DNA of 35,027 nt. It comes from an uncultured bacterium (GTDB lineage: Bacteria; Bacillota_I; Bacilli_A; RFN20; CAG-826). A program made the translations under genes and the position numbers. Shown here piece by piece: positions 22,401 through 28,449 of the stretch. How positions within the stretch are numbered: the stretch's first letter is position 1; each line of letters opens with the position of its first letter. The stretch covers positions 1 through 35,027 of the forward strand of contig CASGDR010000002.1 of NCBI GenBank assembly GCA_949300345.1. The letters run 5' to 3'. The notes beneath the pieces were generated by a model that ran no database searches, was not told the DNA's origin, and saw only the letters and a list, made by a program, of their open reading frames with translations.

Positions 22401-22498
22401 TCGGTAATTCCGTGCTCATCCGCGCCCATAAGGAAAATAGAAAGGGAAGCCCGAGCTACACCGCCGGCTTCATCAGGGAACTAAAGGAAAATGGCTAA
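19457..22498 (+). CDS. dnaE: DNA polymerase III subunit alpha
   Basis: 1013 residues from the GTG. An in-frame TTG at 19439 would add 6 residues. I prefer the GTG because MPYFPLHVRS then matches the family N-terminus (Bacillus DnaE begins MSFVHLQVHS) position for position. It is the replicative polymerase catalytic subunit. Order: PHP domain (1-220), palm with GPGRGSAGGSLVSYALD and the catalytic PDIDVDF, fingers with the SHAVAYAMLS block, tandem HhH region and a C-terminal OB fold (about 920-1000). It is shorter than the roughly 1,110-1,160 usual for DnaE. The PHP domain has HVRS and LSDGL where active PHP domains have HxH and TDHG, so it is probably not a nuclease. It overlaps polA by 8 bases. 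Confidence 0.96.
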   Translation: MPYFPLHVRSAFSFLRSSLVPSSIARAAERLSYKRVGLSDGLSLSAYAPFYHACICKGITPYFGMDIAVQGTPLALYIANEEGYRSLLAIYYLAQKRALTPEDFKSCKGLYAVLDGHSLDESHLLDKDYPMFLYRLSGCFMGFYVGIPYLPKEPEKVSKIREFAALHSYKAIAFPLICYEKEDDQLTLDILRAIEENTKIDQEHKQEKGFMYFLSKEEAEAYFHKEEIDSLEEIAAKLSFDYPQKRGALYRHKENPEGLSSTKYLRKLALEGLQKKNPNYDQRYAKRLDYELSIIEKMGFCDYFLTVADYVHYAKTHDITVGPGRGSAGGSLVSYALDIVEVDPIRFSLLFERFLNPERTSMPDIDVDFNDQKRDRLIAYLKDKYGEERVANVLTTVYIGARQSLHDIRRVYDLPERDLALLSRAISDPNASLRENYKNSPSFRRLVDSDRFYLDFVKLATRIEGLPRQAGLHAAGVVIDDAPLSEVLPTKIEPGTGLVACLEKAYLEEQGFLKMDILGLRNLSLVDACLDLYEKHTGKKVSFYEIPFDEEGAIALVRSGETYGLFQLESPGMRKTVRMVKPTSFLDVAAIIALFRPGPMEQIPNFARRKAGQERISYPSPELSDILKETYGIIVYQEQIMQIATLYAGFSPAKADMFRKAISKKDPIKIAALEKDFKEGAIALGHSKENADSVYSLIYKFASYGFNKSHAVAYAMLSTRMAYMKKHMAGEFYSAVLSNYSLDDKKFKDALREAKSHGYRLLCPDINRSIRIIENHGKDLILSLGYIKKLNGRLIEGILLEREENGPYQDLFDFTLRVKKYGLNTQALIRLIDAGALDCFGLNRTTLRGAAFSSLEYAEMLMGESGNAILLDLGLEKPLIEMRDEDQAASLAAEREALGAYISASPLEKYSMDISREHALPIEEAYDAYGDFLTRGIVSSLDFKITKTGEQMAFLEIYDENSSMRFSLFSEVLDKSRQVLSIGNSVLIRAHKENRKGSPSYTAGFIRELKENG

Positions 22499-25055
22499 GC
22501 TATACATCATCGACGGGAACTCGCTTCTATTCCGTGCCTACTACGCGACTTCCTATAAAGGCAACATCATGACCACATCCAAAGGCGAACCCACCAACGC
22601 CCTATTCGCCTTTTCCAACATGCTCAACAAGATATTGCTCAGGCTCGAGCAGGGCGATGCCCTCTTCGTGGGCTTTGATGCCGACGGGCACACCTTCAGG
22701 AAAGCGGAATTCAAGAACTACAAAGCCAACCGCAAGCCCGCGCCCCAGGAACTCATCGCCCAGTTTGCCCCGACCCGGGAATTGCTCGATAGCCTTTCCA
22801 TCCTCCATTATGAGCAACATGGGATCGAGGCCGATGACATCTGCGGGACTTTGGCCAAAAAAGGCAAAAAGGAAGGCTTCAAGGTCCATATATTTACCTC
22901 GGACAAGGACTACCTGCAGCTGATCGAAGAAGGAATAGAGGTCGAAATCCTCAAGAAGGGCCTAAGCGAGACCCAGATCATCAATGAAAAGAACATGGTG
23001 GAACTCTTTGGCTTTCCGCCCCTAAGGATGATCGATTACAAGGCCCTGGCCGGGGATAGTTCCGACAATCTTCCCGGCATCCCCGGCATCGGGGAAAAGA
23101 AGGCCGTTTCCCTGATCCAGGAATACGGCTCCTTCGAGGACATCGTAAGGGCCGCGCCCAATATCAAGGGCGCCACCGGAGCGAAGATCATCGAAAATGC
23201 CGAGCTGGGCCGGGAATGCTATAAGCTGGCCACCATCCTCACCGATGAGGTGCTGCCCTTCTCCCCTAGCGACTGCCTATATCACGGCTATGACCCCATC
23301 AGGATCGATGCCTTCTGTAGACGCTATGAACTCAAAAGCCTACTAGGAAACTTGCCCTCGAATTGGAAGAAGAATAACGCCGATGAAGGCCTATCTTTCG
23401 AAGAAGTAGAGGCTATTCCCGAAGAGGCTCTTAAGGCCTCTGATGCCTACATCTATCTAGAAGCCAAAGAGGGCGAATATCACCTTAATAAGCCCCTTGG
23501 CGCCTCCATTTATATCGATGGGCGGCTCTATCATATCTCTGCAGAATCCCTGCTTAATGATGAAAAATTCCTGGATTTCCTTGCAGATCCCGCCTCAAAT
23601 GTCCACGCCTATAGCGGTAAGCCCCTGGTCTATTTCCTTGCTAGGAACGGGCATGAGGTAAATGGCTTAAAAGACGATCTGCTCATCGCCTCTTATCTGG
23701 CCGATTCCTCATTGAAGGCCAGCCCCGAATCCGTCTATCTATATTTCGGCAAGGATGTCTATAGCGATGATCCTACTACCTCTTCCTTACTTAAGGCCAA
23801 GCATCTAATAGAGGCTATTAACAATGCAAGGCAGCAGCTCGCCTCCATCGGGGCCAAGACCCTTTATGAGGAAATCGAAATCCCCCTGGTCAAGGTCCTC
23901 GGGGAGATGGAAGCCGAAGGGTTCCCCTTAGATGAAGATAGCCTAACCGGATTAGGCGAGGGCTTTGCTAATAAACGCGATGAGCAAAAAGCCCTCATCG
24001 AAGGGGTACTAGGCCCCATCAACCCCAACTCCGCCAAGCAGCTTTCCGCCGCCCTATACGGGGAAAACGGCATCATCAGCAAAAAGCCCGGGGGCTCGAC
24101 CTCATCGGAGGTTCTTCTTCCCTACCGCGAACGCTTCCCCCTCATCGACTACATCCTTACCTATAGGAAGTACGCTAAACTCTATTCCACCTATGTGGAA
24201 GGACTGCTCCCGTATAGGGAAGAAGACGGGAAGATCCATACCTATTTCAACCAGGCCCAGACTTCGACCGGAAGGCTATCTTCAAGCTCCCCCAACCTCC
24301 AGAACATCACGGTCAGGGACGAAGAGGGCAAATCGGTGAGGAAGTCCTTCTATTATCCCGACAATACGGAAATCCTCTCGCTGGACTATTCCCAGATCGA
24401 ACTGAGGGTCTTGGCCCATATGTCGCATTGCAAGGACTATATCGAGGTCTTCAAAAACGACCGCGACGTCCATAGCGAGACCGCTAGGCGACTCTATCCC
24501 CTAGAAGAGGTCACCTCCGAGCACCGGCGCAAGGCCAAGGCCGTGAACTTTGCCATCATCTACGGCTCGACCGTCTATGGCCTTTCCGAGCAGATCGGCG
24601 GTAGCCTCGAGGAGGCCAAGCGCATCATCGAAGGCTTCTATGGGACCTATCCCGAGATCAAGGATTACCTCGATAAGGTCTACTCCGACGCCTTCCATAA
24701 GGGCTATGTCGCCACCTTGTTAGGAAGAAGGCGCTACCTCAAAGACATCAACTCCCCGGTCTATTCGCTAAGAGAAGCCGCCAAGCGGGCGGCCCTAAAT
24801 GCCCCCATCCAGGGAAGCGCCGCCGATATCCTCAAGCTCGCCATGGTCAAATGCGCCGCCTATATCAAGGAAGAGGCCCCGGAGCTGAAGATGGTGCTGA
24901 CCATCCATGACGAAATACTTTTCGCCGGGAAGAGGAAGGATCTCGAAAAACACCGCCCCCACCTAGTGGAAATAATGGAAAACGCCTATCCCCTTGAAGT
25001 CCCCCTCAAGGTCGAAGGCGGGATCGGAAAGGATTGGGCTAGCGCCAAGGAATAA
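22491..25055 (+). CDS. polA: DNA polymerase I
   Basis: 854 residues. The N-terminal 5' nuclease (1-290) carries IIDGNSLLFRAYY, ADDICGTLA, TSDKDYLQL and the GDSSDNLPGIPGIGEKKA helix-hairpin-helix block. The middle domain (about 300-460) lacks the 3'-5' exonuclease acidic motifs, as in Bacillus Pol I, so no proofreading is expected. The polymerase domain has motif A (LSLDYSQIELRVLAHMS), motif B (RRKAKAVNFAIIYGSTVYG) and motif C (LTIHDEILF). Motif B has Ala where almost all family A polymerases have Gly after the conserved Phe. The enzyme processes Okazaki fragments and fills repair gaps, beside mutM. AAAGGAA inside dnaE serves the ATG. Confidence 0.97.
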   Translation: MAKLYIIDGNSLLFRAYYATSYKGNIMTTSKGEPTNALFAFSNMLNKILLRLEQGDALFVGFDADGHTFRKAEFKNYKANRKPAPQELIAQFAPTRELLDSLSILHYEQHGIEADDICGTLAKKGKKEGFKVHIFTSDKDYLQLIEEGIEVEILKKGLSETQIINEKNMVELFGFPPLRMIDYKALAGDSSDNLPGIPGIGEKKAVSLIQEYGSFEDIVRAAPNIKGATGAKIIENAELGRECYKLATILTDEVLPFSPSDCLYHGYDPIRIDAFCRRYELKSLLGNLPSNWKKNNADEGLSFEEVEAIPEEALKASDAYIYLEAKEGEYHLNKPLGASIYIDGRLYHISAESLLNDEKFLDFLADPASNVHAYSGKPLVYFLARNGHEVNGLKDDLLIASYLADSSLKASPESVYLYFGKDVYSDDPTTSSLLKAKHLIEAINNARQQLASIGAKTLYEEIEIPLVKVLGEMEAEGFPLDEDSLTGLGEGFANKRDEQKALIEGVLGPINPNSAKQLSAALYGENGIISKKPGGSTSSEVLLPYRERFPLIDYILTYRKYAKLYSTYVEGLLPYREEDGKIHTYFNQAQTSTGRLSSSSPNLQNITVRDEEGKSVRKSFYYPDNTEILSLDYSQIELRVLAHMSHCKDYIEVFKNDRDVHSETARRLYPLEEVTSEHRRKAKAVNFAIIYGSTVYGLSEQIGGSLEEAKRIIEGFYGTYPEIKDYLDKVYSDAFHKGYVATLLGRRRYLKDINSPVYSLREAAKRAALNAPIQGSAADILKLAMVKCAAYIKEEAPELKMVLTIHDEILFAGKRKDLEKHRPHLVEIMENAYPLEVPLKVEGGIGKDWASAKE

Positions 25056-25058
25056 ACC

Positions 25059-26420
25059 ATGCCAGAACTACCGGAAGTAGAAACCGTAAAACGCTACCTC
25101 GAACCCCGCCTAAATGGACTCACCTTGGAGCGGATCGAGGTATATAGGGACGCCAATTTCATCGGCGGTTCCGACTCTTTTAAGGTCCTTGAAGGACATA
25201 GGATCAATAGGCTTGGACGCAAGGGAAAGTTCCTGCTTTTCTTCTTTGATGAGGGCCACGCCATCATCAGCCACCTGAGGATGGAAGGAAAGTGGTTTTT
25301 AAAGCCTAAGCAAGCCCCGCGCGAGAAACACGATATCGCCCGCTTTATCCTCAATGGTGAAGAAGACCTCATCTATAACGATACCCGCAAGTTCGGGATC
25401 ATGATCTTGGCTGACCAGGCAACCATGTTTGGGGTTGCCCCCCTATCCGAACTTGGAAAAGAACCCTGGGAGCTAAGCAAGGAAGAACTCCTAGAGGGGC
25501 TAAGCAAAAGGCATGGCCCCATCAAGGAAGCCCTGCTCGACCAAAGCCTGATTGCCGGGCTTGGCAACATCTACGTGGACGAAACCCTCTTCGCCTCTGG
25601 CATCTCCCCGAGGATGGAAGCCTCCAAGACCGATCCAAATCAGGCCGAGGAGATTCTCATCCATTCCAGGGCCATATTGGAAAAGGCCATCTCCCTCGGG
25701 GGTTCGACCGTCCATAGCTACCTCTTTGCCCCCGGGGCCAGAGGCAAGATGCAGGATGCCTTGCTCATCTATGGAAAAGAAGGTGAGAAATGCCCCAAAT
25801 GCGAGACCCCCTTCCGCAAGATCGCCATCAAAGGAAGGGGCACGACCTATTGCCCCATCTGCCAAAGCGATAAGGACCGCCCCTTGGTCTATGCCGTAAC
25901 CGGCCCCATCGCCGCCGGAAAGTCCACGGTGGCCGACTACCTCAAGGAAAAAGGCTATGAGGTCCTTGATGCCGACGCGCTGGTAGCCGGGGCCTATAAG
26001 GATGAAACAATCACCGCAAAACTGGAAAAGGAACTGGGTACTTCCGATAAGAAATCCTTGGCCAAATCAGCTGGCGATCCCCTAATAAGAAAGAAGCTTG
26101 AAAATATCCTCCACCCCTATGTCTATGAGCGGATGCTAAATAGAATCCATGCCAAAAAAGGCGGGAAGATCCTCCTAGACATTCCCCTTTGGAAGGGCTC
26201 ACCCATAGAGGATGAAACCGACTTCCTCATCTTCGTCGGAGCCAAGGAAGAAGTCAGGCGCAAGAGGCTCATCCAAAGGGGCATGGACCCCGATCTATAT
26301 CTTTCCATCAACGCCAAATACCCCTCGAATATCCTTGCAAAAAAGGCCTCTTTGGCCCTTGATGGTTCCGGAAGTGTTCAGAATCTACGCAATATCCTCG
26401 CCGATTGCCCCTATCTTTAA
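25059..26420 (+). CDS. mutM-coaE: Fused formamidopyrimidine-DNA glycosylase and dephospho-CoA kinase (MutM-CoaE)
   Basis: 453 residues in one open frame. Residues 1-272 are a complete MutM/Fpg: catalytic P2 and E3 in PELPEVETV, K57 in GRKGKF, GLGNIYVDE for DNA binding, R260 and a zinc finger C245-C248/C265-C268. It removes 8-oxoguanine. Residues about 276-453 are a complete CoaE: P-loop GPIAAGKST (282-290), DADALVAG, ILHPYVYERM, LLDIPLW and RRKRLIQRG, giving the last step of CoA synthesis. In many Bacilli mutM and coaE are adjacent separate genes; here stop, spacer and start are gone. An in-frame TTG (25884) with AAGGA 7 bases upstream could allow a free CoaE too. It starts 3 bp after polA and its stop overlaps that of the convergent dnaI. 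Confidence 0.95.
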   Translation: MPELPEVETVKRYLEPRLNGLTLERIEVYRDANFIGGSDSFKVLEGHRINRLGRKGKFLLFFFDEGHAIISHLRMEGKWFLKPKQAPREKHDIARFILNGEEDLIYNDTRKFGIMILADQATMFGVAPLSELGKEPWELSKEELLEGLSKRHGPIKEALLDQSLIAGLGNIYVDETLFASGISPRMEASKTDPNQAEEILIHSRAILEKAISLGGSTVHSYLFAPGARGKMQDALLIYGKEGEKCPKCETPFRKIAIKGRGTTYCPICQSDKDRPLVYAVTGPIAAGKSTVADYLKEKGYEVLDADALVAGAYKDETITAKLEKELGTSDKKSLAKSAGDPLIRKKLENILHPYVYERMLNRIHAKKGGKILLDIPLWKGSPIEDETDFLIFVGAKEEVRRKRLIQRGMDPDLYLSINAKYPSNILAKKASLALDGSGSVQNLRNILADCPYL

Positions 26421-27286
26421 TCGTCCATGTCCACATGGACCGCATGGTCTAGGATGAGCGAGGCAAAATCCCTGCCCCCCTTGGGGTCTTTGGCGCTATA
26501 TAGCCCGGCTAGCCTACTAGGCTCGGCCTTGCTACCGATATAGGTGAACTTCCCCTCCTCGATCCTTGCCTCAAGCAAGGGAGTGTAGATCTTATCCCTG
26601 ACGATGGAGGTCCTCGCCTCCATGGCAAAGCCATCGATGAAGAGGTGCTCGGCCTTATATAGCTCGAACATCATGTCCTCGTACTTCTGGGGGCTCTTGA
26701 AGAAGGCATCCGCCATTTCCTTAAAGCGGCTTGGGGCATCGATATAGGCCACCGTCTCCCCTTTTCTAGCGAGGTTATTGCAATAGGCCGAAAGATGGAA
26801 GCTTACGCCCGAATCCTTTTCCCCATAGGTATAAAGGACGGGTTTTTCCTTATTCATGGCCTTGATGCTATAAAGGAAGCGGCGGGACCTATCTTCCTTG
26901 AGTCCTAAATCCTGAAGCTTGGCCTCTAGGAAGGCCTCGGGCATGTCATTGAAAAGGAAGCAGTTCTCGAAATCGATTTTCTTCTGGTAATGGGGGCAAG
27001 GCATGGAAGTCAGAAGGAGGCTATTGCCGTCCTTTACGATTTCATAGGCGATGCCGGTGTTTACCTTGTGACAACGCTCTAATCCCGGGCAATTGAGGCA
27101 GGGCTTTCTATCTTCCAGATAGGTAAGAAGGAGGCCGATATTGTCCTTGACCTCCCCTTTGGTTAGGCCCAGTTCCCTGATCCTAGCTAGGACTTCGGGG
27201 GATTGGCTTAGTTCCTTGATGAAAGGATCGGAGTCTATTTCCCCGTATTGGTCTAGGCTTGAGAAATCGAGTTTCCTAGGCTCCAT
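26417..27286 (-). CDS. dnaI: Helicase loader DnaI, with degenerate ATPase motifs
   Basis: 289 residues. An N-terminal helicase-binding domain has a zinc-type cluster (C63, C66, C72, H73 and C97), as in Bacillus DnaI. The C-terminal AAA+ domain aligns along its length (VLYTYGEKDSGVSFHLSAYCN) but the nucleotide motifs are lost: the Walker A Lys is V161 (G-V-S for G-K-S), Walker B is LFIDGF where DnaI has LMLDDIG, and the sensor-1 Asn is replaced (YIGSKAEP for FFSSNFSP). In Bacillus DnaI loads the replicative helicase DnaC using ATP. Here it may act only as a scaffold. The start overlaps the dnaB stop by one base (TGATG), so the pair is co-translated. Identity rests on domain order and the dnaB neighbour. 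Confidence 0.88.
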   Translation of the reverse strand: MEPRKLDFSSLDQYGEIDSDPFIKELSQSPEVLARIRELGLTKGEVKDNIGLLLTYLEDRKPCLNCPGLERCHKVNTGIAYEIVKDGNSLLLTSMPCPHYQKKIDFENCFLFNDMPEAFLEAKLQDLGLKEDRSRRFLYSIKAMNKEKPVLYTYGEKDSGVSFHLSAYCNNLARKGETVAYIDAPSRFKEMADAFFKSPQKYEDMMFELYKAEHLFIDGFAMEARTSIVRDKIYTPLLEARIEEGKFTYIGSKAEPSRLAGLYSAKDPKGGRDFASLILDHAVHVDMDD

Positions 27287-28449
27287 CAGGCCGCCATCTC
27301 CTTAATGAGTTCCTCAAGGGAAGGCATGTCGCGGTATTTGTCTTCCGAAGCTTCCTTGGCGGGTTTGGCTTTTTTGGAAGTGGCCTTATAGCGCTTGGAG
27401 GTTTCGCTTAGGTAGGACAGAGCCTCATTGGCCGTATTGATGGACTTTCTGACCATGGTGGCGGCTACCCTCTCCATCCAGACCTTGTTCAGGCGCATGT
27501 CGTTACGCTGTATGGAAAATAGCACCAAGGCATTCGCGGCCTGATCGGGCAAGCCCATATCCTCAACGATGTGGCGGACGATTTTTGCATCGGCTTCGGC
27601 CGGTTCATGGCCCTTCTGCAGGGATTTGAGATAGTCATACCAGCCAAGGGTCGAAATATCCCGGATTTCCCTTTCGGTGCCGGTCATTTCCTTAGGATCA
27701 TCGGCTTTTCTGGCGCCGGAGAACTGCTTCATCTCCTCGCTTCTTCTGATCAGTTCAACAAAGCGGACCCGATAGCCGAAGGAATTCTTCTTCTCAAAGC
27801 AGTCCTCTAGAAGCTCGGCCAGGGTCTCTTCGCTGAGTTTGGTCGAAGCGGCGATCTTCTCGATGCGCTTGATCTCTTTCGGAGAGAGGTCTTCATAGGA
27901 AATATTTCCCCTCATGGCCAATAGACCTTTGAAGGATGTCCTATCGAAGAAGCGGTTGGAATTGATGAGCCCGGCGGTGGGATTGATGGCTTGCTGGGCT
28001 TCGCTAGGGAAGCAATCTCCATAGGAGGATGTGGTCTCATTAAAACCATCGGGAATGGGGTCTTCTTTAGGAATATAGGATGAGCCGGTGGCCTTCTTAT
28101 ATAGGCCCGATAGGGCCGGGTCGAGGGCAAAGTCATTGCCGCTGACCGGGGAATATAGGACATGGATCATGTACTTGCCGCCCTCGCCCATCTCCCCTTC
28201 GTAGGTCCTCACCAGTCCGGCGGCTTCCAAAAACTTCAATGACGCCTTCCATTCATAGACGTTCATCTGGGCTTCCATCAAAATGGCGCTGAGTTCCCTA
28301 TGCCCCTTCCCGATATAGGAGGACAAGAAGACAAAAACCCCGATGGCGCGGGGCCCGATGGCCCTTACATAGGGGCGGATGGAAGCCTCGGAATAACCAA
28401 AGCCCGGCTGGCTTCTTACTTCGATGTAGGTAACGCTTTTGCTTTCCAC
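27286..28449 (-). CDS. dnaB: Replication initiation / membrane attachment protein DnaB (Bacillus type, not the helicase)
   Basis: 387 residues. The N-terminal winged-helix DnaB/DnaD region (about 25-120) is followed by a linker. The C-terminal DnaD-like domain (about 290-350) has LPDQAANALVLFSIQRNDMRLNK and the conserved W-x-E-R-V-A-A-T-M segment, which binds DNA. The protein works with DnaD and DnaI to place the replicative helicase at oriC and restarted forks. The end is Lys-rich with an acidic tip. GTG at 28449 is the only start after an upstream in-frame TAG, and no clear Shine-Dalgarno site is present. It is divergent from pfkA and is followed by dnaI with a 1-nt overlap. Confidence 0.88.
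   Translation of the reverse strand: MESKSVTYIEVRSQPGFGYSEASIRPYVRAIGPRAIGVFVFLSSYIGKGHRELSAILMEAQMNVYEWKASLKFLEAAGLVRTYEGEMGEGGKYMIHVLYSPVSGNDFALDPALSGLYKKATGSSYIPKEDPIPDGFNETTSSYGDCFPSEAQQAINPTAGLINSNRFFDRTSFKGLLAMRGNISYEDLSPKEIKRIEKIAASTKLSEETLAELLEDCFEKKNSFGYRVRFVELIRRSEEMKQFSGARKADDPKEMTGTEREIRDISTLGWYDYLKSLQKGHEPAEADAKIVRHIVEDMGLPDQAANALVLFSIQRNDMRLNKVWMERVAATMVRKSINTANEALSYLSETSKRYKATSKKAKPAKEASEDKYRDMPSLEELIKEMAA

Follow-up and report, generated by a model that had tools for sequence, protein, structure and literature searches.

Does the open frame that follows polA in the genome of an uncultured bacterium of the GTDB order RFN20 encode one protein with two enzymes, the DNA glycosylase MutM (Fpg) and the dephospho-CoA kinase CoaE, or is the union of the two only apparent? 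The window analyzed here, i.e. the whole stretch of 35,027 nucleotides, contains a single frame on the forward strand that runs from ATG to TAA without internal stops. The features to which the following analysis refers are:

22491..25055, + strand: polA, directly 5' of the fused gene
25059..26420, + strand: fused gene mutM-coaE (453 codons and TAA), with relatives of the same architecture
25059..25868, + strand: MutM/Fpg domain, residues 1-270, with MPELPE N-terminus, K57, N170 and R260
25791..25862, + strand: zinc finger of MutM (C245, C248, C265 and C268), recognized by Pfam and by its conserved ligands
25866..25901, + strand: SDKDRPLVYAVT, the 12 residues that lie between the zinc-finger CQ and the P-loop, a length shared by 40 of the 42 clade proteins
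25872..25886, + strand: AAGGA with in-frame TTG, a candidate CoaE start that is not conserved
25884..26417, + strand: CoaE domain, residues ~276-453, recognized by Pfam and by conserved residues
25902..25925, + strand: Walker A motif (P-loop) of CoaE, GPIAAGKS, residues 282-289

Only 3 bases separate the TAA of polA from the ATG of mutM, so that polA and the fused gene are probably co-transcribed. On the opposite strand (26417-28449), DnaI-like and DnaB-like primosomal genes converge with the fused gene, and the DnaI-like gene and CoaE end in overlapping stop codons. In many Bacilli, dnaB-dnaI are co-directional with polA-mutM-coaE.

An earlier note, made from the letters of this DNA, had described two full domains in one frame with no stop between them, which the frame itself and the Pfam matches confirm. 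Fapy_DNA_glyco covers residues 1-115 (E 5.6e-30), H2TH residues 134-219 (E 2.6e-21), zf-FPG_IleRS (PF06827) residues 242-270 (E 6.2e-8) and CoaE (PF01121) residues 278-407 (E 2.5e-15, 57.1 bits against a cut-off of 27). The four cysteines of the C-terminal zinc finger and the P-loop residues G282, G287 and K288 lie at the positions it had given. The MutM half exceeded the cut-offs of both NCBIfam models (NF002211, 273.3 bits vs 212; TIGR00577, 266.4 vs 203.3), and its best PDB match over residues 1-270 was Fpg of L. lactis (1tdz, E 1.5e-56). The AF2 model aligned with Geobacillus MutM (1r2y) at Z 35.8 over residues 2-270, in a comparison whose list consisted of MutM/Nei-type chains only, since the larger domain fills it and the CoaE fold is not seen alone. 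Among the aligned relatives, the catalytic M1-P2-E3, K57, N170 and R260 of the zinc finger were invariant or nearly so. In two metagenome-assembled genomes (G016, loci L011/L170, and G184, locus L168) the fused gene is broken inside MutM, while the remaining MutM and CoaE stretch is open over 375 and 363 codons, respectively; this interruption reflects either decay of MutM with CoaE kept or an error in the draft sequence.

The window stems from a draft genome of 10 contigs, and an assembly or frameshift error was accordingly considered as a source of the long frame. The search of relatives for the two-domain architecture, which the earlier note had proposed, recovered the fused protein in 54 of 61 relatives, and nearly all complete copies span residue 1 to ~445-453 in one frame. 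Likewise, the CoaE matches of this family listed in the survey of the order were found nearly all in frames of 437-657 codons, and the shorter frames that were checked either lay at contig ends (G086 and G008) or had the interrupted MutM described above. Dozens of independent genomes show the same architecture, which rules out chance or misassembly, and this explanation was rejected. A loss of MutM-CoaE in some relatives was rejected as well: four family genomes without CoaE (G011, G019, G110 and G121) were checked and found to lack PolA too, and these assemblies thus do not contain the locus at all. On the genomes surveyed, the fusion is fixed in the family, in which practically all intact copies of this locus are fused, and the same holds for several sister families. 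Candidatus Onthovivens merdipullorum (L033) carries the fused gene as well and groups with L043 in the tree described below.

Codes in which AGG is read as Met and CGG as Trp are known within the order RFN20 (PMC8629427). For the fused gene, a changed genetic code was rejected, as AGG occupies four conserved Arg positions. A different situation was noted in a genome of 0.6 Mb (G511, family f32, locus L161), in which mutM reads through TGA codons and mutM and coaE are separate; this suggests that the genome uses code 4.

If the protein is continuous, CoaE could still also, or even mainly, be made separately from a start within the junction, in which case the fusion would be partly nominal. The earlier note had pointed to the in-frame TTG at 25884, preceded by AAGGA (25872-25876) with 7 bases between them, as such a start. 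Both elements are present exactly on the domain border, and the TTG is the best combination of Shine-Dalgarno and start in the frame, being the only one of 16 in-frame NTG codons with an SD-like motif of at least 5 bases. What did not hold up is its preservation as a CoaE start. A start codon in the linker together with a Shine-Dalgarno motif was found in 3 of 64 fused genes, the window included, as opposed to 33 of 51 separate coaE genes. No start codon at all was present in the linker of 47 of the 64 fused genes, and the two closest relatives (L002 and L003) are among those whose linker is devoid of one. Since TTG makes up 15% of the Leu codons here, its chance occurrence at the junction would not be odd. 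A conserved internal start was therefore rejected, the TTG is real but most likely incidental, and separate synthesis of CoaE from this site appears unlikely. The length of the stretch is nearly fixed: counted from CQ of the zinc finger up to the first glycine of the P-loop, it is exactly 12 residues in all but two of the 42 proteins of the family clade. It comprises a linker of ~6 residues followed by the first strand of CoaE (residues 276-281 in the AF2 model).

Whether the second half is a working kinase is less straightforward. It keeps G282, G287, K288, D306, HP352-353, P376 and R407, and in the alignment the Walker A motif as well as D306, P376 and R407 were invariant throughout the clade. 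However, much of the clade no longer has the glutamate of the PLLxE motif and the Q and K of the lid, all nearly invariant in separate CoaE proteins; the window has G380, K420 and L426 in their place. With 61.1 bits, the domain also falls below the cut-off of the NCBIfam equivalog TIGR00152 (65.55), which a fused relative from another family (L052) passes at 164.7. Together with the faster divergence of the CoaE half in most of the pairs compared, these losses would fit a domain that is decaying or has been repurposed, either as a mere C-terminal tail of MutM or as another nucleotide kinase. Against this, dN/dS among close and moderately close pairs was 0.05-0.27 for MutM and 0.08-0.35 for CoaE, values far below 1 that indicate purifying selection on either domain. 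The invariance of the catalytic core speaks in the same direction, as do the retention of CoaD and the fact that no second CoaE was found in the draft assembly. Decay or repurposing is thus quite improbable, and the CoaE half is likely active as a dephospho-CoA kinase; the lost residues and the score under the cut-off are the reason for grading this activity no higher than likely.

The surrounding pathway is consistent with such a role. CoaD was detected in 36 of 37 relatives of the order, 32 of them over the cut-off, while none of the 37 genomes contained CoaBC over its cut-off. The CoA pathway therefore seems to be shortened throughout the order to CoaD and CoaE only, and with CoaD kept and CoaBC undetected the CoaE half most likely completes the synthesis of CoA from phosphopantetheine obtained by salvage. 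These bacteria therefore probably import a precursor at the phosphopantetheine level and need CoaD and CoaE only, as has been proposed for some mycoplasmas (PMC8721197). In the survey of the class, most genomes of family f17 were without a detectable CoaE in spite of a reported completeness of 94-99%, for which full dependence on external CoA or an unrecognized kinase are possible explanations.

The fused state is not peculiar to this genome, as the earlier note might have led one to expect: the whole family has it, and it recurs across the class. The search of the phylum yielded Bacilli only, and the survey of fusions accordingly refers to the class Bacilli. In agreement with the earlier note, the majority state in the class is two separate genes that are directly adjacent. 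In these pairs the start of coaE mostly lies between ~26 bases inside mutM, via ATGA overlaps, and a few dozen bases beyond it. Fused genes were present in at least ten other families (f2, f3, f5, f12, f16, f19, f25, f26, f27 and f28), which stand beside separate overlapping pairs, e.g. with ATGA or 26-base overlaps. The phytoplasma-like g164 genomes were considered as additional fusions and rejected, as their MutM has one domain and no adjoining CoaE. Family f8, which belongs to the same order, has mostly unfused pairs whose two genes share a reading frame and are parted by a TAA; in three of these (L072, L073 and L074) a single TAA splits mutM from coaE and an ATG follows 3-6 bases later, an arrangement that one stop loss would fuse.

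A likelihood tree of 96 MutM and CoaE pairs required 11 changes between the fused and the separate state, which, the tree being unrooted, can be counted as gains or losses alike. At least eight of these changes were forced by well-supported branches, so that the state has changed repeatedly and the recurrent joining of mutM and coaE, as read from the tree, is real. The clade of the window (27 sampled rows from families f1 and f3 and from Onthovivens) formed one branch with a support of 100, and all of its members were fused. The wide spread of separate adjacent genes points to this as the ancestral state. An origin by loss of the junction, as previously suggested for this locus, is likely because separate pairs overlap or lie only a few bases apart.

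Taken together, we favor, with a probability of roughly 0.8, a genuine bifunctional protein in which mutM and coaE have been joined end to end and two largely independent enzymes are carried on one chain. The ancestor would have had the common layout of the Bacilli, with the start of coaE overlapping or abutting the stop of mutM, and loss of the stop or an insertion or deletion of one or two bases would have brought both into one frame. The fusion was presumably tolerated because both the C-terminus of MutM past the zinc finger and the N-terminus of CoaE, with its strand ahead of the P-loop, admit an extension. One chain would then supply the two enzymes at a 1:1 ratio: the MutM half is predicted to excise 8-oxoG and FaPy and to nick abasic sites, and the CoaE half to phosphorylate dephospho-CoA as the final step of the shortened route, which would lead from phosphopantetheine to dephospho-CoA (CoaD) and on to CoA (CoaE). 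Several observations weigh against parts of this reading. Among them are the residues missing from many CoaE domains of the clade, the TIGR00152 score under the cut-off and the two genomes with an interrupted MutM but an intact CoaE. The 12-residue junction and the confidence of the structural models are compatible with fixed packing, and hence with coupling rather than independence.

Such coupling could mean that CoaE is kept where DNA has been damaged by oxidation or that MutM is regulated by the CoA or ATP state, with selection for the link driving the repeated fusion. The earlier note had read the protein as joining DNA repair to CoA synthesis, and nothing was found that demonstrates a functional link between the two. 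Several observations would nevertheless fit with it, namely the changes of state on at least eight well-supported branches, the constant length of the linker at ~40-50% protein identity within the clade and the two-domain AF2 model of the window protein, built from 18 sequences (pLDDT 87, pTM 0.83), which makes a fixed arrangement of the domains possible. In B. subtilis lacking the GO system (MutM, MutY and YtkD), CoaE protein was 9.5-fold higher, and it was proposed that CoA plays a part in oxidative stress (PMC10968225). That increase could be a hint of a stress link or a neighbor effect, as the disrupted mutM lies just upstream of coaE, and the model confidence falls in the relative L032 (pLDDT 84, pTM 0.74, likewise from 18 sequences). 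In addition, adjacency and overlap of the genes suffice to make fusion easy, and in mycoplasmas CoaE has been fused to a different partner, a HAD phosphatase (PMC8721197). It is thus unlikely that the fusions recurred because a physical or regulatory link between the repair of oxidized guanine and the last step of CoA synthesis was selected for, beyond the ease with which overlapping neighbors are joined.

Understood as a chain with two enzymes that are largely independent, the protein provides a clean case of a recurrent fusion of enzymes that have no pathway in common, for which an old gene order with overlaps seems to have been the driver, and a warning that not every gene fusion proves a functional interaction. 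The coexistence of fused and separate pairs also offers a natural test of how tethering affects either enzyme. Since the whole protein scores as Fpg and its CoaE half can stay under the equivalog cut-off, CoaE could be missed in the annotation of these genomes. A review of phytoplasmas reports CoaE annotated there as Fpg and does not describe a fusion (PMC3322544). This perhaps represents the same fusion gone unrecognized; six reduced g164 genomes, on the other hand, carry a one-domain MutM.

Searches of the open-access literature on MutM or Fpg with CoaE and fusion found no paper describing a MutM-CoaE fusion; CoaE fusions as such are known, and it is this pairing that was found undescribed there. 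The N-terminal half resembles MutM/Fpg of known structure (1tdz and 1r2y) over the whole enzyme, including the catalytic N-terminus, H2TH and the C4 zinc finger, but the matched chains stop right behind the zinc finger, whereas the window protein continues into a kinase domain. The C-terminal half shares with CoaE (PF01121, e.g. 1uf9 of T. thermophilus) the P-loop kinase core and the positions of the catalytic Asp and Arg, and differs by the MutM in front of it, the diverged lid motif and a score just under TIGR00152. Human COASY, a PPAT-DPCK enzyme (PMC8721197), and the PRK03333/6n39 type of CoaE, which has a long C-terminal extension, are comparable in that CoaE is fused to another domain; COASY, however, unites two steps of one pathway, while MutM and CoaE share no known pathway. 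A parallel in layout is HAD-DPCK of the Hominis-group mycoplasmas, in which CoaE follows a Cof-type HAD phosphatase (PMC8721197). As in the window protein, CoaE there makes up the C-terminal half of a chain of ~445 residues in Bacilli with reduced genomes. The N-terminal partners differ: by Pfam, the N-terminal half of the window protein lacks a Cof-type HAD domain, and MutM takes its place.
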